Source: Cellulomonas sp. P24 (GTDB lineage: Bacteria > Actinomycetota > Actinomycetes > Actinomycetales > Cellulomonadaceae). Taken from it: a stretch of 64,000 nucleotides of DNA. The notes beneath the pieces are model-generated. The model was not told the origin of the DNA and searched no databases. It saw nothing but the letters and a program-made list of their open reading frames with translations. Of the stretch, positions 4,470 to 48,651 are shown piece after piece. Position 1 is the first letter of the stretch. Every line of letters begins with the position of its first letter. The stretch lies in contig NZ_JAJDFX010000002.1 in assembly GCF_024704385.1 (NCBI RefSeq), positions 1,860,001 through 1,924,000 of the forward strand, in the 5' to 3' direction. The position numbers and the translations under genes were made by a program.

Positions 4470-5810
4470 GTGATGACGATGTTCACGGATCGCACCGACG
4501 CGGGACGCCGACTCGCCCAGCGGATGAAGCCCCACCGCGGTGAGGACGTCGTCGTCCTCGGCCTCCCCCGGGGCGGGGTCGTCGTCGCCTACGAGGTCGC
4601 CCACGCGCTCGGCGCACCCCTCGACGTGATCGTCGTGCGCAAGCTCGGGGTGCCGTACCAGCCCGAGGTCGCGATGGGCGCGATCGGCGAGGACGGCGTC
4701 CGGGTGATCGACCACGACACCGTCGCCCACGCCGGCGTCACGGACAGCGAGCTCGAGACGATCGAGCGGCGCGAGCGCACGCTGCTCGACGCGCGCGTGC
4801 AGCACTACCGCAAGGACCACCCGCGCATCGACCTGACCGGACGGGTCGCCCTGATCGTCGACGACGGCATGGCGACCGGAGCGACGGCCCGCGCCGCCTG
4901 CCAGGTCGCCCGCGGCCTCGGTGCCGCGCAGGTCGTGCTCGCGGTGCCGGTCGCGTCCTGCGGGGCGATCCGATCGATGACGGACGCGGACGAGGTCGTG
5001 TGCCTCGCCGCCCCGCACCCGTTCATCGCCGTCGGTGCGTCCTACGACGACTTCACCGCGACGACCGACGAGGACGTCGTCGTGCTCCTCGACCTCGCCG
5101 CACGCCGCGAGCCCGAGCAGCCCGGTCCCGTCGCCCAGCGGTCCACCGACACCGAGGTCCTGATCCCCGTCCCGGGCCATCCCCTGCACGGCGACCTGCA
5201 CCTGCCGGGAAGTGCGCGCGGCGTCGTGCTGTTCGCGCACGGCAGCGGGAGCAGCCGGCACAGCCCGCGGAACCACTTCGTCGCGTCCGTGCTGCACCGC
5301 GCGGGCGTCGGCACGCTGCTGATGGACCTGCTCTCGACCGACGAGGAGCTCGACCGGTCGAACGTGTTCGACGTCGTGCTGCTCGCCAACCGTCTGGCCG
5401 CCGCGACCAGGTGGCTACGCGGACGACCTGAGGTGCACGGGATCCCGATCGGCTACTTCGGCGCAAGCACAGGCGCGGCCGCGGCGCTGTGGGCCGCGTC
5501 GGACCCGACGCTCGAGGTCCGCGCGATCGTCTCGCGCGGCGGGCGACCCGACCTCGCCGCGTCACGCCTCGCCGGGGTCACGGCACCCACGCTGCTGATC
5601 GTCGGCGCCGCGGACACCGAAGTCATCGGCGTCAACCGCGAGGCGCAGGAGCACCTGCGCTGCCCGAACGAGCTCGTGCTCGTCCCCGGCGCGACGCACC
5701 TGTTCGAGGAACCCGGCACGCTCGCCAAGGTCGCGCTGCTCGCGAGCGACTGGTTCACCGCCCACCTCGCCCCTGACAGCGCCCCCTCCCACGCGAGCCG
5801 ACAACCGTGA
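4470..5810 (+). CDS. Phosphoribosyltransferase fused to alpha/beta hydrolase
   Basis: The first 210 residues are a type I phosphoribosyltransferase domain: LGLPRGGVVVAYEVA near the start and the PRPP loop LIVDDGMATGATA. The second half is a dienelactone-hydrolase-like domain: HGSGSSR, nucleophile elbow GASTG in place of GxSxG, acid residue in VGAADTEV and a final GATHLFEE histidine. This fusion recurs in Actinobacteria, and single-domain relatives belong to the mycobacterial DosR dormancy regulon. Substrates are unknown. GTG 4470 is the first start; ATG codons at 4473 and 4479 are alternatives. Confidence 0.85.
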   Translation: MMTMFTDRTDAGRRLAQRMKPHRGEDVVVLGLPRGGVVVAYEVAHALGAPLDVIVVRKLGVPYQPEVAMGAIGEDGVRVIDHDTVAHAGVTDSELETIERRERTLLDARVQHYRKDHPRIDLTGRVALIVDDGMATGATARAACQVARGLGAAQVVLAVPVASCGAIRSMTDADEVVCLAAPHPFIAVGASYDDFTATTDEDVVVLLDLAARREPEQPGPVAQRSTDTEVLIPVPGHPLHGDLHLPGSARGVVLFAHGSGSSRHSPRNHFVASVLHRAGVGTLLMDLLSTDEELDRSNVFDVVLLANRLAAATRWLRGRPEVHGIPIGYFGASTGAAAALWAASDPTLEVRAIVSRGGRPDLAASRLAGVTAPTLLIVGAADTEVIGVNREAQEHLRCPNELVLVPGATHLFEEPGTLAKVALLASDWFTAHLAPDSAPSHASRQP

Positions 5811-6181
5811 GCGCCCAGAGCGCCGGACCGACCCACACCCACGTCCCCCTGACAGCCTCGCGCTGGGCGCAGGGCTCCTTCTGGGCGCTCGCCGTCTTCG
5901 CCTTGTGGACCGTCGCGTTCGTCGTGGCGAGCGGGCCGCTGGCGCAGGTGCTCGGATCCGACGTCCAGCCGACCGGCGAGGTCGCCTACATCGAGGGGTG
6001 GGCGCCGTGGATCGGGATCACCGTGCTGTGGGTGCTGCCGCTGCTGGTCGGGATCGCCCTCGGCGTCGTCGCCCGCGTGCGCGGCTGCGGGACGATCGCC
6101 CTGGTCGGCATCGGGATGAACGTCGCCGTGCTGCTGTTCGTCGTCGTCCCGGCGCTCGTTGACCGGATCCTGACCCTGTGA
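5807..6181 (+). CDS. Small three-helix membrane protein
   Basis: A 124-residue protein with three hydrophobic stretches (ALAVFALWTVAFVV, ITVLWVLPLLVGIALGVV and ALVGIGMNVAVLLFVVVPAL). Its GTG start overlaps the stop of the phosphoribosyltransferase-hydrolase gene by four bases, so translation is probably coupled. No family recognised. A possible role beside its fused partner cannot be inferred. Confidence 0.7.
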   Translation: MSAQSAGPTHTHVPLTASRWAQGSFWALAVFALWTVAFVVASGPLAQVLGSDVQPTGEVAYIEGWAPWIGITVLWVLPLLVGIALGVVARVRGCGTIALVGIGMNVAVLLFVVVPALVDRILTL

Positions 6182-6340
6182 TCGGAGCTGTCCCTCTCGG
6201 GGCAACCGTGCCTGCGGGGACCGTGAGGACGGCCGTCGGCACGGCCTGCAGGAGCGATCTGACCGACGAGGACGAGCGCATCCCCGACCGCCAGCAGGAG
6301 CCACGCACGGCGTCGTGAGGACTTGACGTGAACGTGGCGA

Positions 6341-7069
6341 TCAGTGGTCCGTCGAATGCCGGGGCGCGGAGGCGGACGCGGACGAGCCCGCAAACCGGGC
6401 CTCGCGACGGGCTGCCGCGTCGATCCCGTCGAGCAGCAGGTCGAGGTCGACGTCAAACGACGCCCCGAACGAGTACCCCGGCTGCAGCACGTGCTGCATC
6501 GTGAACTCGGCGAGGTGCGGGTACTCGCCGACCGGGAAGGCCTGCACGAGCTGGTCGGCCAGCTCGCCGATCTCGCCCCCTCCGCCGGACGGCAGGGCTG
6601 CCTCCTGGAGCGCGAAGCCGTAGACGAACGCGTCGAGGAGCGCGTACGCATGGGCGGTCAGCTCCCAGGAGAAGCCGCCTCGGCGGAGGCACCCGAGGAC
6701 GGCGTCGTGGTGGTGCAGGGTCGCCGGCCCGGGAGACGTGCGCGACTCGAGCAGGGGGACGGCCCAGGGATGGCGCCGCAGCACCTCGCGCGCCGAGGAG
6801 CACCGGTGCCGCATCGCGTCCTTCCACGACCCGTCCAGCGGGGGGTCGTCGATCTCGCCGAACACGAGGTCGACGACTCCGTCCAGGATCGCCTCCTTGG
6901 CGGGCACGTAGTGGTAGAGCGTCATCGGCTTGACCTCGAGCTCGGTCGCCAGCCGGCGGATCGTCAGCGCCTCGATGCCGATCCGGTCGGCGAGCGCGAC
7001 CGCCGTCTCCAGCACCCGGGTACGCGTCAGCCTCCCCCGGGCCGCGTCTCGTGCGTCGGTCGTGGTCAT
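6341..7069 (-). CDS. TetR-family transcriptional regulator
   Basis: A 242-residue repressor. The N-terminal helix-turn-helix reads ALTIRRLATELEVKPMTLYHYVPAKEAIL, and the remaining alpha-helical ligand domain is of the TetR_C type. It is transcribed away from the alcohol dehydrogenase gene, and two copies of a 13-bp dyad lie in the shared spacer, the usual arrangement for autoregulation plus control of the neighbour. ATG 7069 follows GGAG by four bases. Confidence 0.9.
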   Translation of the reverse strand: MTTTDARDAARGRLTRTRVLETAVALADRIGIEALTIRRLATELEVKPMTLYHYVPAKEAILDGVVDLVFGEIDDPPLDGSWKDAMRHRCSSAREVLRRHPWAVPLLESRTSPGPATLHHHDAVLGCLRRGGFSWELTAHAYALLDAFVYGFALQEAALPSGGGGEIGELADQLVQAFPVGEYPHLAEFTMQHVLQPGYSFGASFDVDLDLLLDGIDAAARREARFAGSSASASAPRHSTDH

Positions 7070-24853: not shown

Positions 24854-26287
24854 ATGACGACGCTCACGACGCCGACCTCGGCACCCGCGCGGAGCCCCCG
24901 CGCCAGGCCGCTCCGCGCTCCCGTCCGTCGCACCTGGTGGCCCGACGCCGTCGGCGTCGTGGTGTGGTTCTCCGCACTCGTGGTCGTCGCCCTGTGGGTC
25001 TCGAACGGCGGTGTGCAGAACCTGTTCGCCGGCGCCGGCGACTCGATCCTCTCCCTCGGGCGGCTGACCGGGCTCGTCAGCTCCGACATGCTGCTGCTCC
25101 AGGTGCTCTCGATGGCGCGGATCCCGTGGGTCGAGCGGGCGCTCGGCCAGGACGCGATCTCCCGCTGGCACCGGCTGCTCGGGTTCACCTCGGTGAACCT
25201 GCTGCTCGCGCACGCGGTGCTGACGACCCTCGCCTACGCGATGCTCGGTCGCCTCCCGTTCCTGTCCGAGCTCTGGTCCCTCGTGACCACCGCGCCCGGG
25301 ATGCTGCTCGCGACCGCCGGCACCGCGCTGTTCGTCATGATCATGGTCACGTCGATCCGCGCCGCCCGCCGCCGGATGCGCTACGAGTCGTGGCACCTGC
25401 TGCACCTGTACGCGTACCTCGGCGCAGGCCTCGCCCTGCCGCACCAGCTCTGGACCGGTGCGGACTTCCTCGCGTCACCGGTGGCCACGGCCTACTGGTG
25501 GGGCCTGTACGCGTTCGCGCTCGCCTCGGTGCTCGCGTTCCGGGTCGCGATGCCGTGGCGGTTGTCCCGGCAGCAGAACCTCGTCGTCTCGAAGGTCGTC
25601 ACCGAGGCTCCCGACGTGGTGTCGATCCACCTGACCGGCAAGCACCTCGCGAGGATGCCGGTGGCCGCCGGGCAGTTCTTCGTGTGGCGGTTCCGCACCG
25701 GACCGGGCTGGACCCGCGGCCACCCCCTGTCGCTCTCCGCGGCGCCCACCACCGCCGGCCTCCGGGTCACGTCGAGCACGCAGGGCGACGACGGCGACCG
25801 CCTCGCCCGGATGAAGCCCGGCACGCGTGTCCTCATCGAGGGGCCGTACGGCCGTCTCACCCCGGACGTCCGCACGCAGCCCCGCCTCGCGGTCATCGGC
25901 AGCGGCCTCGGCCTGGCCCCGTTGATCTCGGTGCTCCAGGCCACGGTCGCCAACCCCGGACCCACCGAGTGGCCGGTCACCGTGATCCGCCGCTTCCACG
26001 CCGCCGGGCCGCAACCGCTGCAGGCCGAGCTCGATGCGCTCGTCGCCTCCGGCGCCGTGAAGGTCCTCGACCTCGTGGGGCCGCGCAGCACCGCCGGCAC
26101 GACGTGGCTGCCCGCGCACCTGGGGCACGTGCCGGGCCCCGAAGCCCTCACGCGACTCATCCCCGACCTCGACCGCACGGACGTGTACGTGTGCGGGGCC
26201 GCACCCTGGGCCGAGGCGGTCGGCGCCGATGCGCGCGCCGCCGGTGTCGGGAGCCACGCCCTGCACGTCGAACGCTTCAGCTGGTAG
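24854..26287 (+). CDS. Ferric-reductase-like transmembrane flavocytochrome
   Basis: A 477-residue membrane electron-transfer protein. About six helices form a ferric-reductase-type heme domain (WHRLLGFTSVNLLLAHAVL and YESWHLLHLYAYLGAGLALPHQ carry the His pairs). From about 240 a ferredoxin-reductase-like domain follows, with FFVWRF...GHPLSLSAAP for FAD, VIGSGLGLAPLISVLQA for NAD(P)H and DVYVCGAAPW at the end. It should pass electrons from cytosolic NAD(P)H outward. ATG 24854 follows CGAGG. An exported FMN-binding protein lies directly downstream. Confidence 0.9.
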   Translation: MTTLTTPTSAPARSPRARPLRAPVRRTWWPDAVGVVVWFSALVVVALWVSNGGVQNLFAGAGDSILSLGRLTGLVSSDMLLLQVLSMARIPWVERALGQDAISRWHRLLGFTSVNLLLAHAVLTTLAYAMLGRLPFLSELWSLVTTAPGMLLATAGTALFVMIMVTSIRAARRRMRYESWHLLHLYAYLGAGLALPHQLWTGADFLASPVATAYWWGLYAFALASVLAFRVAMPWRLSRQQNLVVSKVVTEAPDVVSIHLTGKHLARMPVAAGQFFVWRFRTGPGWTRGHPLSLSAAPTTAGLRVTSSTQGDDGDRLARMKPGTRVLIEGPYGRLTPDVRTQPRLAVIGSGLGLAPLISVLQATVANPGPTEWPVTVIRRFHAAGPQPLQAELDALVASGAVKVLDLVGPRSTAGTTWLPAHLGHVPGPEALTRLIPDLDRTDVYVCGAAPWAEAVGADARAAGVGSHALHVERFSW

Positions 26288-26313
26288 ACCAGCAGGACAC
26301 CCGGAGAACCCTC

Positions 26314-26754
26314 ATGCGCCGCATCATCATCGCCCTTGCCAGCACCGTCACCGCCGTCGTCATGCTCTTCTCGTGGCCCACGAGCACCAACCGGTCGGTG
26401 TCCACCGGTCCCGGTGGGACCTCGGGCACCGGGACGACCGGCGGCACGAGCTCCGGAACCGGCTCGTCCGGCACCACCACGACGACCTACGACGGCGACG
26501 TCGCCTCGACCCGGTGGGGTGACGTCCAGGTGCGGATCACCGTCACCGACGGGAAGGTCACCGCGTCGGAGGCCATCGCCTACCCGAACGGCAACGGCCG
26601 TGACCAGCAGATCAACGCCTACGCGATCCCGATCCTCAACCAGGAGGCCGTGGCGGCGCAGTCCGCGAACATCTCGATGGTGTCCGGGGCGACGGTCACC
26701 AGCCAGGGCTACGTGCAGTCGCTCCAGAGCGCTCTCGACAAGGCCGGCATCTAG
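26314..26754 (+). CDS. Exported FMN-binding protein with flavinylation motif
   Basis: A 146-residue protein with an N-terminal anchor (IIIALASTVTAVVMLFSW), a Gly/Ser/Thr linker and an FMN_bind domain from about 60. SGATVTS near the C-terminus fits the motif in which ApbE attaches FMN covalently to a Thr, as in RnfG and NqrC. It lies 26 bases after the ferric-reductase-like gene, so the flavin is the likely outside electron acceptor. The only ApbE gene visible is at 44.7-45.7 kb. Confidence 0.88.
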   Translation: MRRIIIALASTVTAVVMLFSWPTSTNRSVSTGPGGTSGTGTTGGTSSGTGSSGTTTTTYDGDVASTRWGDVQVRITVTDGKVTASEAIAYPNGNGRDQQINAYAIPILNQEAVAAQSANISMVSGATVTSQGYVQSLQSALDKAGI

Positions 26755-39476: not shown

Positions 39477-41132
39477 TCACGCCCCGACGAGGTCCCGTCG
39501 CTCGAACGCGAGCACCCCGGCCACCGTCGCCGCGACCCCGATCGCGACCATGACCACCGCGGCCGTCAGCCCGAACGGGTCGACCGGGACGGCCTCGAGG
39601 TGACGGAACGGCGAGATCCCGATGACGGCCTCGGGCCACGACAGCATCGGCCCGACGACCTGCAGCACGTAGGTCGCGATCGCGGCCGACGCGGTGACGG
39701 CGACCGTGACCCGCGGCGCGACGCCGTAGACCAGCACCGCGAGACCGCCGAACACGACGACGGCCGGCACCGTGTTGAACATCGACGCGAACGCGTCGCC
39801 CACCGACAGGTCCGCGCCCGTGACCGAACCACCGAGCCACATCGCCGTCGCCGAGACCGCGGTGAGCAGCACGACGGACCCCAGCATGAGGACGACGTGC
39901 CCGCCGAGCCAGCGGCGTCGCAGCACCGGACGTGTCACCAGGTGCTCGAGCCGGGCCGCCGCCTCCTCGGTCCAGGCCGCACCGATCCGCCACGCGGCGA
40001 ACAGCGCGATCACCAGACCGGTGATCACGGACGCGAGCGCCACGAAGGTCCGAGGGACGTCCGACACCCGGACACCGAGCGTCGCGAGCAGGTCCCGGTA
40101 GCTCGGGTCCGCCGCGATGAAGTCGGCGACGCTCCGGACCAGCAGCCCGATCACCAGGCTCCAGATCGCGAGGCCGGCGACCCAGCCGACGAGCACCGCC
40201 AGGTTGGTGCGCCACGCGAACGCGAGCGGGCTGCCGAGGCCCCACAGCCGCGACCGACGGCTCTCCTGCCCGCCGACCAGGCCCGCCCCGGTGTCGCGCG
40301 CGTCCCGCAACCGGATGGCAGTCACCACCAGGACGACGACCACTCCGACCGGGACCGCGAGCACGGGCCACCGGTCGTCCCCGAACGGGCGAAGCTGGTC
40401 CATCCACCCGAGCGGCGTCAACCACCCGATCCAGCTGCGCGAGTCCGCGCTGTTCGCGACCATCCGCACGAGCACGGCCGCCCCGAGCACGGCGGCCGCG
40501 ACGCTCACCGCCCGCGAGCGCGCGACGAAGACCTGCGCGGCCACCGCGGCGACCGCCACGAAGAACGCGGCGACCCCGGCGACCTCCGCGCCGAACAGCA
40601 GCGCACCCGGCAGCGCGGCGCCCGCCAGGCTGAACGCGACACCGATCGTCGTCCCGACGAGGAGACACGCGGCGACCAGCACCGCGAGCTGGGCCAGCAG
40701 GGCACGCCCGGCCCGGATCGACCCGGTGAGCACGAGCTCGGTCCGGCCGGTCTCCTCGTCGCCGCGGAGCACGCGGACCGCGACGATCAGCGCCCACACC
40801 GACACGATCACCTGGAGGATCCACCCGGCGTCCCAGGTGACGAACCCGCCGACCGTGTCGACCGCGTGCGGGACCCCCTGCATGATGCGGACCGCCGGGT
40901 CGTCGCCGAACGCGGCGAGCCGGGCACGCGACGCGGCGTCGGGATACGCGGCCTCGTACGAGACGGCCTCGATCACGACGTAGACGCCCGTCGAGGCCGC
41001 GACCACCGCCGCCCCGCGCCGGGTCAGCCGCCAGGTCAGACCGGCGACCGCTCGACCGGTGCCGCGGCGACGGGCGCCACGGTGCCGTCGACGCGTGACC
41101 GGCCCCGCGGCCGGCCCCTCGGTGACCGTCAC
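39477..41132 (-). CDS. ABC-2 type exporter permease
   Basis: A 551-residue membrane protein with about 12 helices arranged as two similar halves, as in the tetronasin-type exporters of Actinobacteria. LRGDEETGRTELVLTGSI in the first half and AAWTEEAAARLEHLVTRPV in the second are the paired cytoplasmic loops that contact the ATPase. GGGGAGG before GTG 41132 sets the start. It follows its ATPase gene by 66 bases. Likely a drug or natural-product exporter. Confidence 0.87.
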   Translation of the reverse strand: MTVTEGPAAGPVTRRRHRGARRRGTGRAVAGLTWRLTRRGAAVVAASTGVYVVIEAVSYEAAYPDAASRARLAAFGDDPAVRIMQGVPHAVDTVGGFVTWDAGWILQVIVSVWALIVAVRVLRGDEETGRTELVLTGSIRAGRALLAQLAVLVAACLLVGTTIGVAFSLAGAALPGALLFGAEVAGVAAFFVAVAAVAAQVFVARSRAVSVAAAVLGAAVLVRMVANSADSRSWIGWLTPLGWMDQLRPFGDDRWPVLAVPVGVVVVLVVTAIRLRDARDTGAGLVGGQESRRSRLWGLGSPLAFAWRTNLAVLVGWVAGLAIWSLVIGLLVRSVADFIAADPSYRDLLATLGVRVSDVPRTFVALASVITGLVIALFAAWRIGAAWTEEAAARLEHLVTRPVLRRRWLGGHVVLMLGSVVLLTAVSATAMWLGGSVTGADLSVGDAFASMFNTVPAVVVFGGLAVLVYGVAPRVTVAVTASAAIATYVLQVVGPMLSWPEAVIGISPFRHLEAVPVDPFGLTAAVVMVAIGVAATVAGVLAFERRDLVGA

Positions 41133-41198
41133 CTCGTCCTCCCCTCGTACCGTCGTCGCACCTGTCCCGCACCGCACCGTCCGGGCGCCCGAGACCCG

Positions 41199-42071
41199 TC
41201 AGTAGTACGTCAGGAACACCTGCTCGAGCGTCGCCTCCTCGGTGCGCAGGCTCGTGACCGGGAGCGTCGCGAGGCGGGCGATCAGCGCGGACGGCGACCC
41301 GGTGAGCGAGACCCGGACGCCGCCGGGCAGCGGCTCGCTCGCGGTGACGCCGTCGACGTCGTCGAACGACGGCACCGGGCCGTCCATCAGCACCTCGACG
41401 ATCGTCGTGTGCAGACGACGCAGGTCGTCGAGCGCGGCGACCTCCACCAGCTGCCCGGTGCGGAGGATCGCGACCCGGTCGCACAGGTCCTGGACCTCGT
41501 CGAGGATGTGCGACGAGAGGAAGATCGTCTGGCCGCGTGCGGTCGCCTCACGCGCCAGGTCCTGGAACACCGCCTCCATGAGGGGGTCGAGGCCCGCGGT
41601 CGGCTCGTCGAGGAGCAGGACGTCGGGCCGGGTCATGAAGGCCGCGACCAGGGCGATCTTCTGCCGGTTGCCCTTCGAGTACGCGCGCGCCCGCACGGAC
41701 GGGTCGACCTGCAGCCGCTCGACGAGCTCGTCGCGGAAGGCCACGTCCACGCGCCCGGAGATCCGGCCCAGGAGCTCGAGGGTCTCGGCGCCGGTCAGCT
41801 GCGGCCACAGCGCGACGTCACCGGACACGTACCCGACGTGCCGGTGGGACCGCTCGACGTCCTCGACCGGGACGCCCATGATCGTCGCGCTGCCGCTCGT
41901 GGGCCGGATGAGGTGGAGCAGGAGGCGCACCGTCGTCGACTTCCCGGACCCGTTCGGTCCCAGGTACCCGAAGATCTCACCCTGGTGGACCTCGAGGTCG
42001 AGGTGGTCGAGGGCGACCACCGTCCCGAAGTGCTTGGTGAGACCGCGCGCCACGACCGCAGGGGTGTCCAC
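41199..42071 (-). CDS. ABC transporter ATPase
   Basis: A 290-residue nucleotide-binding subunit. Walker A is GPNGSGKST, Walker B VLLLDEPTAGLD and the H-loop SSH; the signature reads YSKGNRQK rather than LSGGQ, a common variant in drug exporters of this group. The C-terminal extension of about 70 residues also fits that group. GGGAGG six bases before GTG 42071 sets the start. It lies 121 bases after the ferredoxin gene, same strand. Confidence 0.9.
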   Translation of the reverse strand: MDTPAVVARGLTKHFGTVVALDHLDLEVHQGEIFGYLGPNGSGKSTTVRLLLHLIRPTSGSATIMGVPVEDVERSHRHVGYVSGDVALWPQLTGAETLELLGRISGRVDVAFRDELVERLQVDPSVRARAYSKGNRQKIALVAAFMTRPDVLLLDEPTAGLDPLMEAVFQDLAREATARGQTIFLSSHILDEVQDLCDRVAILRTGQLVEVAALDDLRRLHTTIVEVLMDGPVPSFDDVDGVTASEPLPGGVRVSLTGSPSALIARLATLPVTSLRTEEATLEQVFLTYY

Positions 42072-42192
42072 CGTGCGCCTCCCGTCGTCCACGTCGGTCG
42101 GCCGTCCGAGGTCCGGCTCTCCCGGAGGGCTGCCCGTGCTCCCAGGCTTACCACCGGCCGGCCCCGCCCGCGGCTCGGGACGCCCGACCGGA

Positions 42193-42462
42193 CTACGACG
42201 AGAACGGCGCGGTGCCCCCCGGTCTGCGCTCGGCGGCGGACGGGACCTCGGAGGTCTCGATCCAGAGCGCCTTGCGTGGGCAGGCCCGGACCGCACGCCG
42301 CGCGGCGGAGAGCTCACTCCGGGAGAGCTCGCGGGCCGTGATGATCGGGAAGCCCCAGCGGTCGAGCTCCAGGACCTCCGACGCCAGGTGGGCGCACACG
42401 CCGATGCCGTCGCAGGCCGCCGCGTCGATGCGCAGACGTGACGTCTCGCCGTGCTTCTTCAT
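42193..42462 (-). CDS. 3Fe-4S type ferredoxin
   Basis: An 89-residue small electron carrier. Three Cys are present: two in the N-terminal CDGIGVC and one in RACPRKAL, the set that binds a 3Fe-4S cluster in P450-type ferredoxins; the fourth Cys of 4Fe-4S forms is absent. ATG 42462 overlaps the NuoF-like stop by four bases. It is the last gene of the overlapping redox operon and may carry electrons between the NuoF-like protein and the membrane cytochrome. Confidence 0.88.
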   Translation of the reverse strand: MKKHGETSRLRIDAAACDGIGVCAHLASEVLELDRWGFPIITARELSRSELSAARRAVRACPRKALWIETSEVPSAAERRPGGTAPFSS

Positions 42463-43922
42463 CGGTGTCCCCCCGGGACGGGCAGGGTGATCCGCCCCGA
42501 CTCGTAGCACGGCCGGCCGGCGACGTGCTCGACGACGTCGTGCTCGAAGACCTCCAGCGCGGACGCGATCAGGCGCGTCGCACCGTCGGGGTGGTGGCAC
42601 GCACCGCGCCCCTCGACGAGGCGCAGGTCCTCGAGGAGCTGGGCACGTTCGCGGCGGGAGGCCTCGCCTGCCGCGAGGGCCCGCATGCCGTCCGTCAGCG
42701 CCGGGAGCCCGAACAGGCACGGCCCGCACTGCCGGGCGCTCATCGATGCGAGGTAGCCGGTGAGGGCGGCGGTCTCGGCGAGACCGCACGCGCCGTGGGC
42801 GATCGGTGCGACGACTCCGGCGCCGATGCTCAGGCCGGCTGCGCGCAGCGCGGGCTCGTCGAACGTCGCCGACCGCAGGTCACGCCACGACGCCCACATG
42901 CCGCCGTACCCGCCGAGGAGCGCCGCCTGCGGCGCGCCGTTCCGCAGCCAGCCGGTGGCCTCGAGCACGTCGATCACCGGGGTCCCGCGCGGCACCTCGA
43001 GGACCATCCGGCTGACCGGGGTCAGCACGGTGAGCAGCATGGTCGGCAGCGGCGGGTACCCGCGGGCGATGAGCGCCAGCCGGGCCAGGGTCTCGACGTT
43101 GTGCACGAGCGTCCGGGGGCTTCGGCTCCGTGGGTCCCGGGGACGACGCGCCGTGGGGAGGGTCGGGCCGCCCTGCAGCGCGCGGGTGATCGCGCTCGAC
43201 TCGCCCGACAGGTAGTGCGAGGGGCCCATGACGAGCTCGGGGGCGGGCTCGTGCAGGCGTGCGGCGCGCCGCTCGGCGATCGCACCCTGGAGGGTCGCCG
43301 CGGTGCCGTGGTCGTCGCCGTGCAGCCAGACGACGGCCCGGTCCGCCCCGAGGGCCTCGGCGGCGAGGGCCAGCCCGTCGAGCACCAGGTGGGGGCGCTG
43401 ACGCATCAAGGTGGCGTCCTTCGCGCTGAGCGGCTCGCTCTCGGCACCGTTCGCCACGATGGTCAGGGGCCCGTCGCCTTGCAGCGTCTTGCGCCACTTC
43501 GCGGCCGCCGGGACGTGCGCGCCACCGTGGCCGGTGAGCCCCGCGCGTTCGATCATCGCGACGAGGTCGAGGCTCCCGTGCGGCCGCGGACCGACCCGGC
43601 CGACGAGGTGCTCGAGGTGCTCGACGGCGGCGGGCTCCCACGGGTCGGCCTCGCCGACGCGGTCGAGCTGCACGCCGTGCAGCAGCAGCGCGGGCCGCGC
43701 CTGCGCCGCGCCGTGCGTGGTCGACGTCTGCGTGGTCGACGTCTGCGTAGTCGAGACCCGGGCGGGGGACGTCCGGGCGGGCGCGCCCCATGCGACCGTC
43801 TCTGCTCCCGTCGAGCGCGACCGGTCCCACGCGAGCTGGTCCCGGGTGACCCTGAGCTGCTCGGTGCGGTCCGTGCCGGACCACGCACGCGACGGGTCAG
43901 CCGTCAGCTCGTCCGGGCTCAT
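42459..43922 (-). CDS. NuoF-like flavin/iron-sulfur oxidoreductase
   Basis: A 487-residue homologue of the NADH-binding subunit of complex I. After a Thr/Gln-rich repeat (TTQTS units near 58-68), residues from about 110 carry GLTGHGGAHVPAAAKWR and VANGAESEPLSAKD, the FMN/NADH site; an SLBB region and the 4Fe-4S segment SARQCGPCLFG...GACHHPDG close it. No NuoE or NuoG is near. ATG 43922 overlaps the membrane protein stop by four bases. Probably oxidises NAD(P)H for the membrane partner. Confidence 0.88.
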   Translation of the reverse strand: MSPDELTADPSRAWSGTDRTEQLRVTRDQLAWDRSRSTGAETVAWGAPARTSPARVSTTQTSTTQTSTTHGAAQARPALLLHGVQLDRVGEADPWEPAAVEHLEHLVGRVGPRPHGSLDLVAMIERAGLTGHGGAHVPAAAKWRKTLQGDGPLTIVANGAESEPLSAKDATLMRQRPHLVLDGLALAAEALGADRAVVWLHGDDHGTAATLQGAIAERRAARLHEPAPELVMGPSHYLSGESSAITRALQGGPTLPTARRPRDPRSRSPRTLVHNVETLARLALIARGYPPLPTMLLTVLTPVSRMVLEVPRGTPVIDVLEATGWLRNGAPQAALLGGYGGMWASWRDLRSATFDEPALRAAGLSIGAGVVAPIAHGACGLAETAALTGYLASMSARQCGPCLFGLPALTDGMRALAAGEASRRERAQLLEDLRLVEGRGACHHPDGATRLIASALEVFEHDVVEHVAGRPCYESGRITLPVPGGHR

Positions 43923-44683
43923 CGCAGGGCCCCGTCGCGTCGATCGTGGTCACGTTGGCGCGGCACGTGCCGCAGCTCCGGGGGGACGTCGAGCGCCCGC
44001 GTCAGCTCGGCGACCCGGTCCTGCGGGGTGCGGGCACCGTAGCGGCTCACCGCGAGGCCGATCAGCGCGAGGCCGGTCGTGAGGTAGAAGCCGCGCAGGG
44101 CGAGGATGTCGCTGCCGGCCAGCACGCTGTGCCCCCACACGAGAGCGAGCGAGACGGCGGCGACCTTGTGGATCGGCCACCACACCCGCGCGGCGACCGA
44201 CCCGGCGAGCTTCGCGGTGACCCCGGTGATCAGCCCGGCCCACAGCGCGATCACCCCGAGCGTGACCGGGACCGGTCGGTACACCGCGGCCATCGGCAGC
44301 AGGGCACCACGCCACCCGACCTGGGCCCACGGGTCGGTCGCGAGCACGACGACGTGCAGGACCGTGAAGGCGAGCGTGAAGGTGGCGAGCCCGACGTGCA
44401 GGCCGATCCGCGTCGCCGCCGACGGCCGCCTGAGCCCGCGGGCCCACGGGTGCGACAGCACCAGGCCGGTCGCCACGAGGCAGGTGAGGAGCACGTACGA
44501 CGTGACACCGCTGGCGCGTCCCAGCAGCCACGGGACCTTGGTCTGCCCGACGAGCGTGTCGCGGACGAGGAGGACGCCGAACGCGACGGTCGCCGCGCCG
44601 GCGACGACGAGCAGGATCGACCCCAGCACCCCGGCGAGCGAGGGCGTGGACGTGGGCGTCGAGGACGTGCGAGCCGGTCTCAT
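43919..44683 (-). CDS. Ferric-reductase-like heme membrane protein
   Basis: A 254-residue protein with six helices and no flavin domain. GLHVGLATFTLAFTVLHVVV and WPIHKVAAVSLALVWGHSV hold His residues spaced as heme ligands in ferric-reductase-like domains. GGAGG seven bases before ATG 44683 sets the start, which overlaps the apbE stop by four bases. With a NuoF-like partner and a ferredoxin supplying electrons it should carry them across the membrane. Confidence 0.88.
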   Translation of the reverse strand: MRPARTSSTPTSTPSLAGVLGSILLVVAGAATVAFGVLLVRDTLVGQTKVPWLLGRASGVTSYVLLTCLVATGLVLSHPWARGLRRPSAATRIGLHVGLATFTLAFTVLHVVVLATDPWAQVGWRGALLPMAAVYRPVPVTLGVIALWAGLITGVTAKLAGSVAARVWWPIHKVAAVSLALVWGHSVLAGSDILALRGFYLTTGLALIGLAVSRYGARTPQDRVAELTRALDVPPELRHVPRQRDHDRRDGALR

Positions 44684-45723
44684 CGGTGCGCCTCCAGCTC
44701 TCGTGCGGTCCAGATGACCAGCGGGTCCATCCGGGTCGTCGTGCCGACGGTGCCGTCCTCGTGCACCCAGGCGGCCGTCAGGCCGAGGTCCTCGGCGACC
44801 GACCGGATCTCCGAGGCCCCGGCGAGGAACAGCGTCTTGCTCCAGACCTCCGACCAGGCGGCATCCGGTGCCAGGACGGTCACGGCGGCCAAGCCGGCAC
44901 CACCCGGACGCCGCGTGCGCGGGTCGACGAGGTGGTGGACGTGCGCACCGCCGGAGGTCCACCGACGACGCCGGATCGACGAGGTCGCACACCCGGTGTC
45001 GGTGACGTCGAGGACGAGCACGAGCTCGGCGTGGTCGGACGGGTCCTCGACCCCGACGCGCCAGCGTGGGCCGTCGGGTCCGACGCCTGCGAGTGCCTCG
45101 TCACCGCCGGCGTCGACCGCGTAGCCCGCGCCGGCGTCGGCCAGCTCGTCCGCAGCCCACCGCACGGCCAGGCCCTTGCCGATCCCGCCGAGGTCGATCG
45201 GCTGGTCACCCAACCGGATCCACCACTCCCCGTCGCTCTCCACGATCTCGGGATGCCACGGGGCGGGCCGTCGGACCGTCGCCGCCGGGGTGACGGCCGG
45301 GAGCGCAGCCGGGTCGCGCGTCACCGCACCGTCGACGAACGGCAGCGTGCGGTCGTAGCCCCAGCCGAGCAGGACGTCGAGGATCCGCGGGTCGAACAGG
45401 CCGTCGGTCTCACGGTGCGCCCGGTACGCCTCGGAGACCGCGGCGGCGAGCGTCGCCGGGACCTGGTGCCACTGCTCGGGCGCCGCATTGGCCCGGGACA
45501 GCGCGCTCGTGGCGTCGAACCGCGAGCACGTGCGCTCGACGTCGCGCACGGCCTCGACCGCGCGGGTGAGGTGGAGCTCCGCGTCCGGTCCGGGGTCGAC
45601 GACCGTCAGGGTCACGGGGCTCGCCATCGACCGGAACGACACGACGACCAGCTCATCCGAGCGCGTCACCTCGACACCGTCGGCGGCCAGTCCCTGGACG
45701 GTAGGCATCGGGACCAGGCTCAC
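44680..45723 (-). CDS. apbE: FAD:protein FMN transferase
   Basis: A 347-residue ApbE enzyme, which attaches FMN from FAD to Thr of FMN_bind proteins outside the membrane. DLGGIGKGLAVRWAADEL, YAVDAGGDEALAG and HHLVDPRTRRPG with ATSS before it are the FAD and magnesium sites. No signal peptide is obvious. GTG 45723 overlaps the previous stop by four bases. No gene of its own operon shows a flavinylation motif; the visible candidate substrate is the FMN_bind protein at 26.3 kb. Confidence 0.92.
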   Translation of the reverse strand: MSLVPMPTVQGLAADGVEVTRSDELVVVSFRSMASPVTLTVVDPGPDAELHLTRAVEAVRDVERTCSRFDATSALSRANAAPEQWHQVPATLAAAVSEAYRAHRETDGLFDPRILDVLLGWGYDRTLPFVDGAVTRDPAALPAVTPAATVRRPAPWHPEIVESDGEWWIRLGDQPIDLGGIGKGLAVRWAADELADAGAGYAVDAGGDEALAGVGPDGPRWRVGVEDPSDHAELVLVLDVTDTGCATSSIRRRRWTSGGAHVHHLVDPRTRRPGGAGLAAVTVLAPDAAWSEVWSKTLFLAGASEIRSVAEDLGLTAAWVHEDGTVGTTTRMDPLVIWTARELEAHR

Positions 45724-46205
45724 GAGGCCTTGGTGACGGTGTTGACCTTCGGCGCGGGCGCCGGGGCGGGCGCGGGCGCAGCGGCCGGGGCGGGCGCCGG
45801 CGCGGCGGCTGCCTTCGGTGCGACGGCCGTGGTCTTCGGCGCGGTCGTCGTGGTCCGCGGGGCCGCGGCCTTCGCCTGAGGTGCCGCAGCCGCTGCCAGC
45901 TTGGCTTCGAGCGTGGCCTGGAGTGCGGCGATCTGCTCCTGCGCGGCCTGGACCTGCGCCTTGAGCTCGGCGACGTGCTGGTCGGCGGCGGCGCGGCGGG
46001 CGGCGTCGGCAGCGGCGCTCGCCTCAGCCGCTGCCGTGGCCTCCGCAGCGGCCGTCGGGTCGACGGTCGGTGTGCTCGAGGCGCTCGACGCGGCGAGCGG
46101 GTCGTGCGACCCGGCCCACGCGACGCTCGCACCGAACAGGCCCGCGGTCGCGGGGATCAGGGCGAGCGCCGTCGCCCGGCGGCGGAGGGCGCGGGAGTCA
46201 GTCAT
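45720..46205 (-). CDS. Secreted coiled-coil Ala/Pro-rich protein
   Basis: A 161-residue protein with signal peptide (ATALALIPATAGLFGASVAWAG), an Ala-rich coiled coil at about 50-110 (ADQHVAELKAQVQAAQEQIA) and a low-complexity tail of AP repeats. Function unknown. It overlaps its upstream neighbour by eight bases and apbE by four, so it is translated as part of the redox operon. It could be a structural spacer in the cell wall. Confidence 0.78.
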   Translation of the reverse strand: MTDSRALRRRATALALIPATAGLFGASVAWAGSHDPLAASSASSTPTVDPTAAAEATAAAEASAAADAARRAAADQHVAELKAQVQAAQEQIAALQATLEAKLAAAAAPQAKAAAPRTTTTAPKTTAVAPKAAAAPAPAPAAAPAPAPAPAPKVNTVTKAS

Positions 46206-46602
46206 CCGACTCGTCCTCCGAGTCGTGGCTCTCCGTGTCGTGGCTCTCGGTCTCGTGCGACTCGTACGTCGGCGCGGCGGCGGGGCTCGGTGCCGCAGCC
46301 GGTGCCGGTGCGGGTGCCGTCGTGCCCGAGTACGTGTAGCTCGGCGACGGGGTCGGCACTGCGGCGACCTCGGCCTCGAGGGTCTTGACCTGGTCGAGCA
46401 GCTCGGCGACGGTCTGCTCGAGGGCGGCCGTCTCGGCGTCGGTGGTCGACGTCGGCGTCGGCGTGGGGGTCGGGGTCTGGACCGCGGTGGGCGCGGGCGC
46501 GGGCTGGGCGGTCGTGACGGCGTTCGCCACGGCGGCAGCCCCGGCGCCCGTCAGGACGGTGGCCGTCATCACGGCGATGGAGGAGCGGCTCTTCCAGTTC
46601 AT
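46198..46602 (-). CDS. Secreted coiled-coil protein with His/acid-rich tail
   Basis: First gene of the redox operon, 134 residues. It has a signal peptide (SIAVMTATVLTGAGAAAVANA), a Pro/Thr linker (TPTPTPTPTS), a short coiled coil (TAALEQTVAELLDQVKTLEA) and an Ala/Pro stretch. The tail has repeated pentads ESHET, ESHDT and ESHDS followed by Glu/Asp, a plausible metal-binding end. GAGGGA seven bases before ATG 46602 sets the start. Similar in plan to the next gene; no family recognised. Confidence 0.78.
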   Translation of the reverse strand: MNWKSRSSIAVMTATVLTGAGAAAVANAVTTAQPAPAPTAVQTPTPTPTPTSTTDAETAALEQTVAELLDQVKTLEAEVAAVPTPSPSYTYSGTTAPAPAPAAAPSPAAAPTYESHETESHDTESHDSEDESDD

Positions 46603-46686: not shown

Positions 46687-46706
46687 CGCTAAGACTCGGT
46701 TAAGCC
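46687..46706 (-). promoter_or_regulatory. Candidate response-regulator site upstream of the redox operon
   Basis: On the minus strand GGCTTAACCGA is followed by GTCTTAGCGGT, two half-sites in 11-bp register. CTTAACC and the second CTT match the tandem site at 48732-48753. It lies about 85-105 bases before the first operon gene and touches the end of the kinase gene. Confidence 0.45.
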
Positions 46707-47974
46707 TGAGAGGGCAGTTCCAGGACGATCCGGGCGCCGCCGGACATACCGGCTCCGATGACCAGCCGGCCGCCCGCGCGCTCGGCCGTGCGCCGTGCGA
46801 CGTCGAGGCCGAGACCTGTCGACCCGGTGCCGCTGCGGCCGCGTTCTGCCAGGTCGGCGGCGACGAACCCGGGCCCGTCGTCCTCGACGACGACCTCGAC
46901 CAGCGGCCCGACGACGGCGACACCGAGGACGAGCGACGTGTGCGCCGGCGTATGGCTGAACACGTTGTCGACCAGGACGTCGAGGGCCGCGCCGAGCTCG
47001 ACGACGCTCGTCCCGACAACGGCTGCGGCGTCGGGCACGTCGACCCGGAGGTCGCGGCCCTGGTCGGCGGCGAGCACTCCCCAGAACCTGCCCCGGTCCC
47101 GTACGACCGTCGCGGCATCGCACCGGCTCACCGGGGCGTTGTGCACGGGGTGCCGCGCAGCCCACACGACGGCGTCGACCGCGTCGACGAGAGCGTCGAC
47201 GTGCTCGGTCATCCGCTCGCGCTCCTGGGCGTCGTCGATCAGCTCGACGTCCAGCCGCAGCGCGGTGATCGGCGTCCGGAGCCGGTGCGACAGGTCGGCG
47301 ACGAGCTCGCGCTCGTCCGCGAGGAGCCCGGCGACACGCTCCCCCAGACCGTTCAGGACCCGCCCCACGGAGGCGACCTCCTGCGGTCCGGAGGGCTCGA
47401 CCCGGGCCGCGAGGTCACCGGACCCGAGCTTCTCGGCGACCGAGGACAGGTCGCGCACCGAGCGGGAGAGCCGCGACGCGATCCTGTCCCCCGCTGCCAT
47501 CGTCGCCACGATCAGCACGACGCCGACGCCTGCGAGCACGAGCCAGGACTGCTGGACGCCCTTCGTGAGCTCGGAGTCCGGGATGAACGTCCGCACCACG
47601 GAGACGCCTGCGGACCCTCCGACGGGAAGCAGCACCTGGACGCCCCCGTCGGTCCGGGCCGTGAGCGCACGGCCGAGCTGCGCGAGGTCGATCGCCGGCG
47701 ACGGCCCCGCCGGTGCGCCGACCGTCTTGCCGTCGGGCAGGAACACCGTGGTGCGCCGCTGCGCCCCGTTGACCGCGAGCACGGCCGCGTCGAGCCGCGC
47801 GGAGTCCTGGGTGGCGCCGCCGGCGAACACCGCGACGCTCTGGGCGTCCTGCCGACCGGCGGACAACGCACGCTCCTCGGCGAGAGACCTGGCCAGCAGC
47901 CCCAGCGGGACGAGGAACGCCACGACGACGACCGACGTCATCGCCAGCCCGTAGAGGACCAGGAGGCGCCTCAT
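46700..47974 (-). CDS. Sensor histidine kinase
   Basis: A 424-residue membrane kinase. Two helices (about 7-29 and 144-161) enclose an extracellular domain of about 115 residues, followed by a HAMP-like linker, DLSHRLRTPITAL with phospho-His230, and an ATPase domain ending GTGSTGLGLDVARRTAERAGG. The gene overlaps the response regulator stop by four bases. It lies head-to-tail upstream of the redox operon and probably senses an envelope signal for it. Confidence 0.9.
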   Translation of the reverse strand: MRRLLVLYGLAMTSVVVVAFLVPLGLLARSLAEERALSAGRQDAQSVAVFAGGATQDSARLDAAVLAVNGAQRRTTVFLPDGKTVGAPAGPSPAIDLAQLGRALTARTDGGVQVLLPVGGSAGVSVVRTFIPDSELTKGVQQSWLVLAGVGVVLIVATMAAGDRIASRLSRSVRDLSSVAEKLGSGDLAARVEPSGPQEVASVGRVLNGLGERVAGLLADERELVADLSHRLRTPITALRLDVELIDDAQERERMTEHVDALVDAVDAVVWAARHPVHNAPVSRCDAATVVRDRGRFWGVLAADQGRDLRVDVPDAAAVVGTSVVELGAALDVLVDNVFSHTPAHTSLVLGVAVVGPLVEVVVEDDGPGFVAADLAERGRSGTGSTGLGLDVARRTAERAGGRLVIGAGMSGGARIVLELPSQA

Positions 47975-48651
47975 GCGGGCGGCGCCAGCTTCACCCCGAC
48001 ACCACGGACCCGGACCAGGTACCGGGGGGCGTCGGCGGTCTCACCGAGCTTGCGTCGCAACCAGTGCAGGTGGACGTCCACGGTCTTGTCGGCGCCGCCG
48101 TACGGCTGGTTCCAGACCTTCGCCAGGAGCTCACGCTTGCCGACGACCTCACCGGCGCGCTCGGCGAGGTACAGCAGGAGGTCGAACTCCTTCGGGCTGA
48201 GCTCGAGAGCAGCCCCGTCGAGCGATGCGATGCGGGAGCGGGCGTCGATCACCAGACCGCCGACGGTCACCGGCCCGACGGTCTTGGTCGCGTCCGAGCG
48301 ACGCAGCACGGCGCGGATCCGCGCGTCGAGCTGGTCGGCCGCGAACGGCTTCACGAGGTAGTCGTCGGCGCCGGCGTCGAGCACGGCCACGATCCCGTCG
48401 CCGTCGTCGCGTGCGCTCACCACGATCACCGGGACGTCGCTCACCGAGCGGATCATCGCGAGCAGCGCGGTGCCGTCCAGGTCGGGGAGCCCGAGGTCCA
48501 GCACGACGACGTCCGGGCGGTTCGCGACCAGGCTCTGCAGGCCCTCCATCGCGGTCGGTGCTGTCATCGTGGAGTGCTGGCGCGCAGTGAGCGCCCGCAC
48601 CAGGGCGGTGCGGATCGTCGCATCGTCCTCGACGATCAAGACATCGGCCAC
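47971..48651 (-). CDS. OmpR-family response regulator
   Basis: A 226-residue regulator: receiver with VEDDATIR, phospho-Asp52 in VVLDLGLPDLDG and Lys in LVKPFAADQ, then a winged helix with ELSPKEFDLLLYLAERAGEVV and TVDVHLHWLRRKLGE. Start GTG 48651 (MADVLIVEDD). It heads a regulator-kinase pair divergent from a secreted-protein gene; tandem 11-bp repeats in the spacer are its likely binding sites. Confidence 0.92.
   Translation of the reverse strand: MADVLIVEDDATIRTALVRALTARQHSTMTAPTAMEGLQSLVANRPDVVVLDLGLPDLDGTALLAMIRSVSDVPVIVVSARDDGDGIVAVLDAGADDYLVKPFAADQLDARIRAVLRRSDATKTVGPVTVGGLVIDARSRIASLDGAALELSPKEFDLLLYLAERAGEVVGKRELLAKVWNQPYGGADKTVDVHLHWLRRKLGETADAPRYLVRVRGVGVKLAPPA

Follow-up and report, generated by a model that had tools for sequence, protein, structure and literature searches.

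Which protein carries the flavin in an operon that encodes a flavin transferase and no known flavin-carrying domain? The question is raised by six overlapping genes in a 64,000-nucleotide stretch of the genome of Cellulomonas sp. P24 (contig NZ_JAJDFX010000002.1, positions 1,860,001 to 1,924,000; hereafter 'the window'), which run on the minus strand from position 46602 to position 42193 and encode, in that order, two small proteins (here termed 'sp1' and 'sp2'), an ApbE-family transferase of flavin mononucleotide (FMN), a transmembrane cytochrome with four histidines, a NuoF-like protein and a ferredoxin. An initial annotation had described this set as an overlapping operon with ApbE, NuoF-like and 3Fe-4S ferredoxin members and no FMN_bind domain, and each of these statements was confirmed: successive genes share 8, 4, 4, 4 and 4 nucleotides (nt); ApbE matches its Pfam family at 1.1e-48; the NuoF-like protein matches Complex1_51K at 1.4e-31 and also NADH_4Fe-4S; the ferredoxin matches Fer4_15 and has three cysteines, its type being assigned by cysteine count; and no operon protein gives a Pfam match to FMN_bind at E values up to 1.

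According to the consulted parts of Meheust et al. 2021 (PMC8238504), ApbE moves FMN from flavin adenine dinucleotide (FAD) onto the last residue of a [S/T]GA[S/T]-like motif; two further substrate domains were found in that study, and others may be missing. In the operon described here the best candidate for the covalent flavin carrier, judging from its sequence, is sp2, by way of its C-terminal serine. It is fairly probable, in our estimate, that the operon as a whole is a two-component-controlled electron exporter with a tethered flavin arm, in which FMN is placed on that serine.

Occurrence and architecture of sp2

Two collections of loci were compared. The first set was drawn from named genomes scanned for a NuoF-like protein, with at least 80 loci kept; the held-out set consisted of 60 new regions, taken in rank order from a phylum-wide heme-protein search, of which six without a called heme gene were dropped and 52 were left after removal of near-copies (19 of them with NuoF). 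An open reading frame (ORF) was accepted as sp2 when its stop lay near the next gene (apbE, or the heme gene if apbE was absent) and a helix lay near its N-terminus. This rule leaves a few errors, such as L043, which is wrong, and L097, which has a wrong start; they were kept in the counts.

Clusters of apbE, four-histidine cytochrome and NuoF-like genes contain an sp2-like gene in Actinomycetota and, in some cases, in Chloroflexota and Dormibacterota; the small genes are not a peculiarity of one lineage. Among the matches listed, an sp2 ORF is present in 68 of the 82 NuoF-type loci of the first set, and apbE, heme and nuoF genes are consecutive in that order in 55 of 80 (own gene calls). Across 114 deduplicated sp2 loci, the gene immediately after sp2 is apbE in 96 and the heme gene in the others, and in 54 the two neighbours overlap by 4 or 1 nt. 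The linkage of the small genes with apbE and NuoF-like genes, which the initial annotation had offered as the point to check in other genomes, is strong and wide.

The sp2 proteins share a common build: a single membrane helix near the N-terminus, a low-complexity tail rich in Ala, Ser, Thr and Pro, and conserved residues at the very C-terminus. In 99 of the 114, the segment that precedes the helix has a higher net charge than the segment that follows, which predicts that the tail lies outside. Neither sp1, sp2 nor the membrane protein has a match above the curated cut-off in Pfam or NCBIfam, the sp2-like proteins that were tested have no Pfam domain at cut-off, and the earlier view that the small-gene pair is the least-known part of the system is supported. 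The possibility of an FMN_bind domain hidden in sp1, sp2 or their relatives was rejected, there being no Pfam match in those tested.

Departures from the usual arrangement were also found. Pairs of an sp2-like gene and apbE without neighbouring redox genes occur at L200, in the window's own genome, and at L220; the L200 pair (5204-6414 of G000:C2:3466500-3477500) includes an sp2-like protein of 82 residues that ends GTHGS. The same genome holds a paralogous set of small gene, heme gene, nuoF and ferredoxin genes without apbE (L033:5711-8233, G000:C2:744000-757000), the small protein of which ends HGFSTGS. In three mycobacterial genomes the set is split, with small gene, heme gene and nuoF in one place and apbE and ferredoxin in another (L069/L203, L077/L204, L092/L205).

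A conserved C-terminal motif

The last residues of sp2 are conserved though the tail is not, with endings such as VSGGS, TSGGS, TSSGS, TGAS and SRGS, and with VTKAS, VTKPSGA and TTRASG in the window's family; the exact published form, TGAS, is thus present in some relatives. For the statistics, 14 variants with a cysteine loop were set aside from the 114, leaving 100 deduplicated proteins. Of these, 83 end in Ser, 85 have Gly, Ala or Ser at position -2, and 85 have Ser or Thr at position -4. A relaxed motif, [ST]-x-[GAPS]-[ST], lies no more than two residues from the end in 84 of the 100, as against a mean of 18.6 and a maximum of 34 in shuffled tails (2000 rounds), and the strict form [ST]G[AG][ST] in 36 (shuffle mean 1.0, maximum 6). 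For comparison, 790 other proteins encoded at these loci, a sample that was not deduplicated and includes sp1 proteins, have the relaxed motif in 1.8% of cases and the strict one in none. An origin of the sp2 C-terminus as a by-product of Ser/Thr-rich composition is ruled out by the shuffles and by these other proteins.

The motif pattern was written down before the held-out regions were fetched. An sp2 ORF was found in 18 of the 19 held-out NuoF-type loci, and 12 of these 18 proteins carry the pattern; the remainder comprise five cysteine-loop variants (17 of 18 if these are added) and one protein ending VTHHS. Without L129, L131 and L141, which are close to first-set proteins, the result is 10 of 15 plus four variants. 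In the NuoF-less held-out loci, which lie outside the pre-stated test, 19 of 28 carry it. The variant of Acidimicrobiia, C-x-[ST]-x-[PA]-SG-x-C, had been noted before the held-out test but left out of the pattern; in the Acidimicrobiia-type sp2 of L135, L137, L141, L143, L152 and others, a two-cysteine loop stands in place of the bare C-terminal serine.

Work on engineered flavin tags provides a measure of how much of a motif ApbE needs. In the consulted parts of a review (PMC12052999), seven residues were enough, replacement of Asp by Ala had a minor effect, replacement of Gly by Ala or of Ala by Val cut the flavinylation yield to about half, and tags worked best at a protein terminus. The sp2 end resembles a relaxed form of the ApbE motif and stands at the kind of position, a protein terminus, at which engineered tags perform best.

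FMN_bind proteins as alternative partners

Across 50 genomes with a NuoF-like gene, 28 gave no FMN_bind match (many are metagenome-assembled genomes (MAGs), possibly incomplete). In five isolates (Mycobacterium sp. ENV421, M. palauense, Klenkia taihuensis, K. brasiliensis and Rhodococcus sp. 06-235-1A) exactly one ApbE is present and FMN_bind is absent, and Williamsia deligens has two ApbE and likewise no FMN_bind; FMN_bind as the partner of the operon-type ApbE in every genome is ruled out by such cases. DUF2271 is likewise excluded as the substrate by its absence from all 11 genomes searched, those six isolates included, in a search to which DUF3570, NqrB/RnfD and flavodoxin-type substrates did not belong. 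ApbE itself is present in 28 of 28 genomes searched, including 10 whose called cluster has a heme gene but no apbE. Near the clusters, a home-made FMN_bind profile run on called proteins gave a hit in one of 91 first-set loci (L087, 3.7 kb past nuoF) and in none of the 60 held-out ones.

The window does have an FMN_bind gene of its own. At 24854-26754, on the plus strand, a ferric-reductase-like flavo-oxidoreductase gene (by sequence) is followed by a membrane-anchored FMN_bind gene with an SGATVTS motif and no adjacent apbE. The genome further contains an FMN_bind gene with its own apbE (G000:C2:1746000-1748600) and, at L201:4300-5584 (G000:C2:3553500-3562500), an apbE after a lipoprotein-like gene with an SGSSLT stretch, FMN_bind-like but with no Pfam match.

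The window's FMN_bind gene counts in favour of the strongest alternative, in which the sp2 end is a docking or sorting signal, read by the cytochrome or an export factor, and the operon's ApbE modifies an FMN_bind protein elsewhere, for example that at 26314-26754 of the window. That gene lies 16 kb away with no adjoining apbE, the TKAS end of the window's sp2 fits the canonical motif loosely, and, of 21 FMN_bind genes in nine genomes (counted by hand), nine have no neighbouring apbE and would be served from elsewhere if flavinylated. The other 12 adjoin ApbEs that fall outside the cluster ApbEs on a quick tree, in which 14 ApbEs beside FMN_bind or FMN_bind-like genes part from 96 cluster ApbEs with one change, as against 13.4 in shuffles. 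(Of the 14, 11 adjoin a PF04205 match, L202 adjoins one below cut-off and L201 none, and L207 was assigned without Pfam; the partners at L201 and L207 are themselves part of the home-made profile.) Together with the genomes that have one ApbE and no FMN_bind, and with the sp2-apbE pairs that lack redox genes, this makes a docking or sorting signal unlikely.

sp1, the coiled coil and the regulator pair

The initial annotation had presented sp1 and sp2 as a pair of 'secreted coiled-coil' proteins. A heptad stretch of about 25 residues is indeed present, but both proteins look single-pass anchored, with low-complexity tails, and across families the best conserved feature of sp2 is its C-terminus, not a coiled coil. 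A coiled-coil-like stretch is found in 12 of 23 sp2 proteins with an sp1 partner as against 3 of 91 without one; of these three, L038 and L057 do have an sp1-like gene that the filter (at least five acidic residues in the last 20) missed, and L097 is the case with a wrong start. A coiled-coil role for sp2 in general is ruled out, the coiled coil being almost confined to loci with sp1, and this distribution indicates that the coiled coils most likely hold sp1 and sp2 together. Thus sp1 is probably the coiled-coil partner of sp2.

The acidic, often His-rich tail of sp1 ends in Asp-Asp in all 24 proteins that pass the filter (shuffles 2.1, maximum 8), a count made after wrong picks (L101, L150, L172, L188) and duplicates (L049, L050) had been removed by hand and the window's sp1 added. 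Three sp1-like proteins outside the filter have no terminal Asp-Asp (L038, ending THD; L127, DGGDG; the partial L057, DDED), and the other acidic-tailed proteins of the loci end in this way in 5 of 52 cases, some resembling further sp1. By the filter, sp1 is found in 8 of 68 first-set NuoF-type loci (among the matches listed; a ninth pick was wrong), in none of the 18 held-out NuoF-type loci with sp2, and in 18 of 28 NuoF-less held-out loci, three of these being wrong picks. The 8 nt overlap between sp1 and sp2 recurs in L147, L155, L160 and L166. At L149:2342-2977, an sp1-like protein has a PepSY match just under the Pfam cut-off, followed by a poly-Asp tail.

The unit is larger than six genes: a response regulator (RR) and sensor histidine kinase (HK) pair lies directly upstream on the same strand, with a gap of 97 nt between the kinase gene and sp1, and may control the operon. 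The order RR-HK-sp1-sp2-apbE-heme-nuoF is found again in L037, L038, L039, L051 (Cellulomonas MAG) and L052 (Actinotalea lenta), and this recurrence in five loci argues that the arrangement is not due to chance. (Judged by length and gene positions, L049 and L050 duplicate the contigs of L037 and L039 and were not taken as extra loci. L049, JAKBFW010000094.1, is labelled 'Proteobacteria bacterium' and has a NuoF-like gene 90% identical to that of the window; a contig that agrees with it in length and gene positions belongs to G001, which is placed in the window's genus, and L049 is probably a mislabelled MAG.)

A second alternative would make sp1 and sp2 sensory partners of the histidine kinase, their tails binding a metal or a cell-wall ligand while the redox chain works without them. 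The sp1 tail does look like a metal-binding one, and RR or HK matches lie near many loci (46 of 80 first-set stretches, among the matches listed, and 37 of 60 held-out stretches); yet sp2 stays with apbE and the heme gene in stretches without a kinase match, even as a lone pair with apbE, and we regard this explanation as very unlikely.

Redox proteins and a proposed electron path

In the heme protein, H96, H110, H172 and H185 are invariant throughout two alignments (11 of 11 and 40 of 40 sequences). Three of four tested relatives score above the cut-off of PF01794 (Ferric_reduct); the window's own protein does not match this family. Its AlphaFold2 model (mean predicted local distance difference test score 82.7) has cytochrome b561, bacterial NOX and STEAP as best solved neighbours, with Z scores of about 14-16, and STEAP1, NOX5 and DUOX take the top ranks in Foldseek, none at an E value below 0.001.

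The model of the NuoF-like protein matches complex I NuoF with a Z score of 41 and a root-mean-square deviation of 2.2 over 382 residues. The CxxCxxC...C ligand set of complex I NuoF is incomplete in this protein: by comparison with Thermus Nqo1 (2fug_1), the first CxxCxxC cysteine is replaced by Ala, and the invariant C399, C402 and C442 align with the other three. Two further cysteines, C379 and C472, are invariant in 33 of 33 sequences, the former some 20 residues upstream of the site without its first cysteine and a possible alternative cluster ligand. In the ferredoxin, C17, C23 and C61 are invariant in eight of eight.

A path from reduced nicotinamide adenine dinucleotide (NADH) through FMN, iron-sulfur (Fe-S) and 3Fe-4S clusters and two predicted hemes to the outside follows from these protein families. 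In the exporter proposed here, the NuoF-like protein would take electrons from cytosolic NADH and pass them through its FMN and Fe-S cluster, and the three-cysteine ferredoxin would hand them to the NOX/STEAP-like membrane protein with its two predicted b hemes. At the outer face, electrons would then move to the FMN that ApbE would have placed covalently on the C-terminal serine of sp2, the long low-complexity tail acting as a swinging arm and the whole as a natural flavin tag without an FMN_bind domain. Beside the membrane, sp1 would pair with sp2 through the short coiled coil, and its His/Asp/Glu-rich tail may concentrate a positively charged acceptor, ferric iron for example, or serve as a docking site for a partner. 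The initial annotation had suggested a transfer from NADH to an extracellular flavin; the parts of a chain from NADH to the outside are present, but neither a free extracellular flavin nor a missing FMN_bind protein has to be invoked as the acceptor.

Points against a flavin arm on sp2

Several observations weigh against this reading, in which flavinylation itself is inferred. No sp2 ORF was found in 14 of the 82 NuoF-type first-set loci (several at contig ends), nor in 1 of 19 NuoF-type and 5 of 33 NuoF-less held-out loci, and in L216, a locus with ApbE, heme and NuoF genes, the small protein ends SSGDN. The pre-stated pattern succeeded in 12 held-out proteins of 18, not in all, and the Acidimicrobiia variant shifts the serine into a cysteine loop. 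The window's own ending, TKAS, has neither the Gly nor the Asp of the published motif, with which only Thr, Ala and the final Ser agree; in the consulted parts of PMC12052999, the Asp with which known motifs begin is described as invariant among established targets, and ApbE as favouring Thr over Ser for the linkage, while sp2 ends in Ser. The quick ApbE tree has a support of only 76 on its dividing branch, and two partners on its FMN_bind side are doubtful (L201, with no Pfam FMN_bind match, and L202, below cut-off).

Further points concern ApbE. The window's protein scores 166.5 bits against PF02424 (cut-off 25.6) and matches solved ApbE relatives at 1.6e-22. At the positions that we take to be the catalytic histidine and the metal-site Asp and Thr, compared on an alignment, the histidine in HHLVDP is kept (H264, invariant in 28 rows), and the metal-site pair reads Glu and Lys in the window's clade. 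Simple hydropathy gave no clear ApbE signal peptide in the first-set loci, so that either the attachment of FMN would precede export or some export path not seen here would be required. The altered metal site, the want of a clear signal peptide and a Treponema relative that is a pyrophosphatase (PMC4767422, consulted in part) would suit an ApbE acting as an FAD pyrophosphatase or as a supplier of FMN to the NuoF-like protein, with no extracellular covalent flavin and a cytochrome that reduces quinone, metal or oxygen directly, but this leaves the conserved sp2 terminus and its tie to apbE unexplained, sits badly with the many clusters that hold apbE and a heme gene but no NuoF, and is the least probable of the explanations considered.

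Relation to known systems

The operon most resembles the MsrQ-like flavinylation clusters of PMC8238504, which, in the consulted parts of that paper, combine a PF01794-type heme membrane protein with apbE, occur broadly in Actinobacteria and include 31 clusters with a NuoF-like protein. Of the features that define the class, the gene for a cytosolic electron donor is present here as that of the NuoF-like protein, and a PF01794-like heme membrane protein is indicated by the scores of relatives, the four invariant histidines and the b561/NOX/STEAP fold, the heme itself being predicted. The difference lies in the carrier: MsrQ-like clusters typically have a gene with an FMN-binding domain, whereas the candidate in this operon has no known domain and a tail with a C-terminal motif. 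The consulted parts of PMC8238504 mention neither sp1 nor sp2.

Two other comparisons are instructive, each with a source consulted in part. The FMN_red proteins (PMC10979944, a 2024 preprint) likewise bear an ApbE motif on a flexible, unstructured C-terminal extension, but in those proteins, found mainly in Firmicutes, the motif belongs to a folded domain that binds flavin, whereas the sp2-like proteins have no Pfam domain at cut-off. In flavin-tag technology (PMC12052999) a seven-residue terminal motif suffices; that tag is engineered, and sp2 would be its natural counterpart. As for the donor, the NuoF-like protein shares with complex I NuoF/Nqo1 its fold and its FMN and Fe-S regions; it differs in the absent first cluster cysteine and in the invariant C379 elsewhere, and neither a NuoE-like nor a NuoG-like gene is present in the operon. 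Searches of open-licence papers, judged mostly by titles and abstract openings, gave no description of C-terminal flavin carriers without a domain, or of sp1 and sp2. The exporter type is known, and the carrier type appears to be new.

Operon layout and neighbouring genes

The coordinates of the operon and of the regulator pair are collected in Table 1. Directly downstream, at 39477-42317 on the minus strand, lie an ABC-type ATPase gene and one more gene; genes of similar size follow the cluster in L036 and L037, of the same genus, but not in L038 and L051, and in L052 the sizes differ.

Table 1. Features of the operon and its upstream regulator genes, in window coordinates
Feature	Position	Strand	Remarks
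Response regulator (Response_reg and Trans_reg_C)	47971..48651	-	GTG start; Pfam
Sensor histidine kinase (HAMP, HisKA, HATPase_c)	46700..47974	-	4 nt overlap with regulator; Pfam
sp1: membrane helix at the N-terminus, short heptad stretch, tail rich in His/Asp/Glu with -DD at its end	46198..46602	-	8 nt shared with sp2
sp2, the candidate FMN carrier: membrane helix at the N-terminus, HDP, short coiled coil, tail rich in Ala/Pro with VTKAS at the C-terminus	45720..46205	-	
Codons for sp2 C-terminal Thr-Lys-Ala-Ser; last Ser the proposed flavinylation site	45723..45734	-	
ApbE, FAD:protein FMN transferase family	44680..45723	-	GTG start at 45723; 4 nt shared with sp2
Four-His transmembrane cytochrome (H96, H110, H172, H185), Ferric_reduct/NOX/STEAP-like fold	43919..44683	-	4 nt shared with ApbE gene
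NuoF-like NADH/FMN/Fe-S protein	42459..43922	-	4 nt shared with heme gene
Three-Cys ferredoxin (C17, C23, C61), [3Fe-4S] type by cysteine count	42193..42462	-	4 nt shared with nuoF-like gene

Implications

Beyond this operon, we lean towards the view that sp2 represents a widespread and so far unnamed class of ApbE substrates: membrane-tethered, low-complexity proteins without a domain, which would receive FMN on the serine at their extreme end, act as swinging arms that link a di-heme transmembrane reductase to acceptors outside, and have, in many lineages, an acidic-tailed coiled-coil partner. Domain libraries cannot register a substrate that consists only of a tether and a terminal motif, and this would explain why such a class has gone unnoticed. 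If the class exists, some of the ApbE genes without an FMN_bind partner would be accounted for, and many actinobacteria would gain a defined electron route to the outside. It would also mean that a covalent flavin needs no folded carrier in order to function. The conserved tail of sp1 points to a second partner function.

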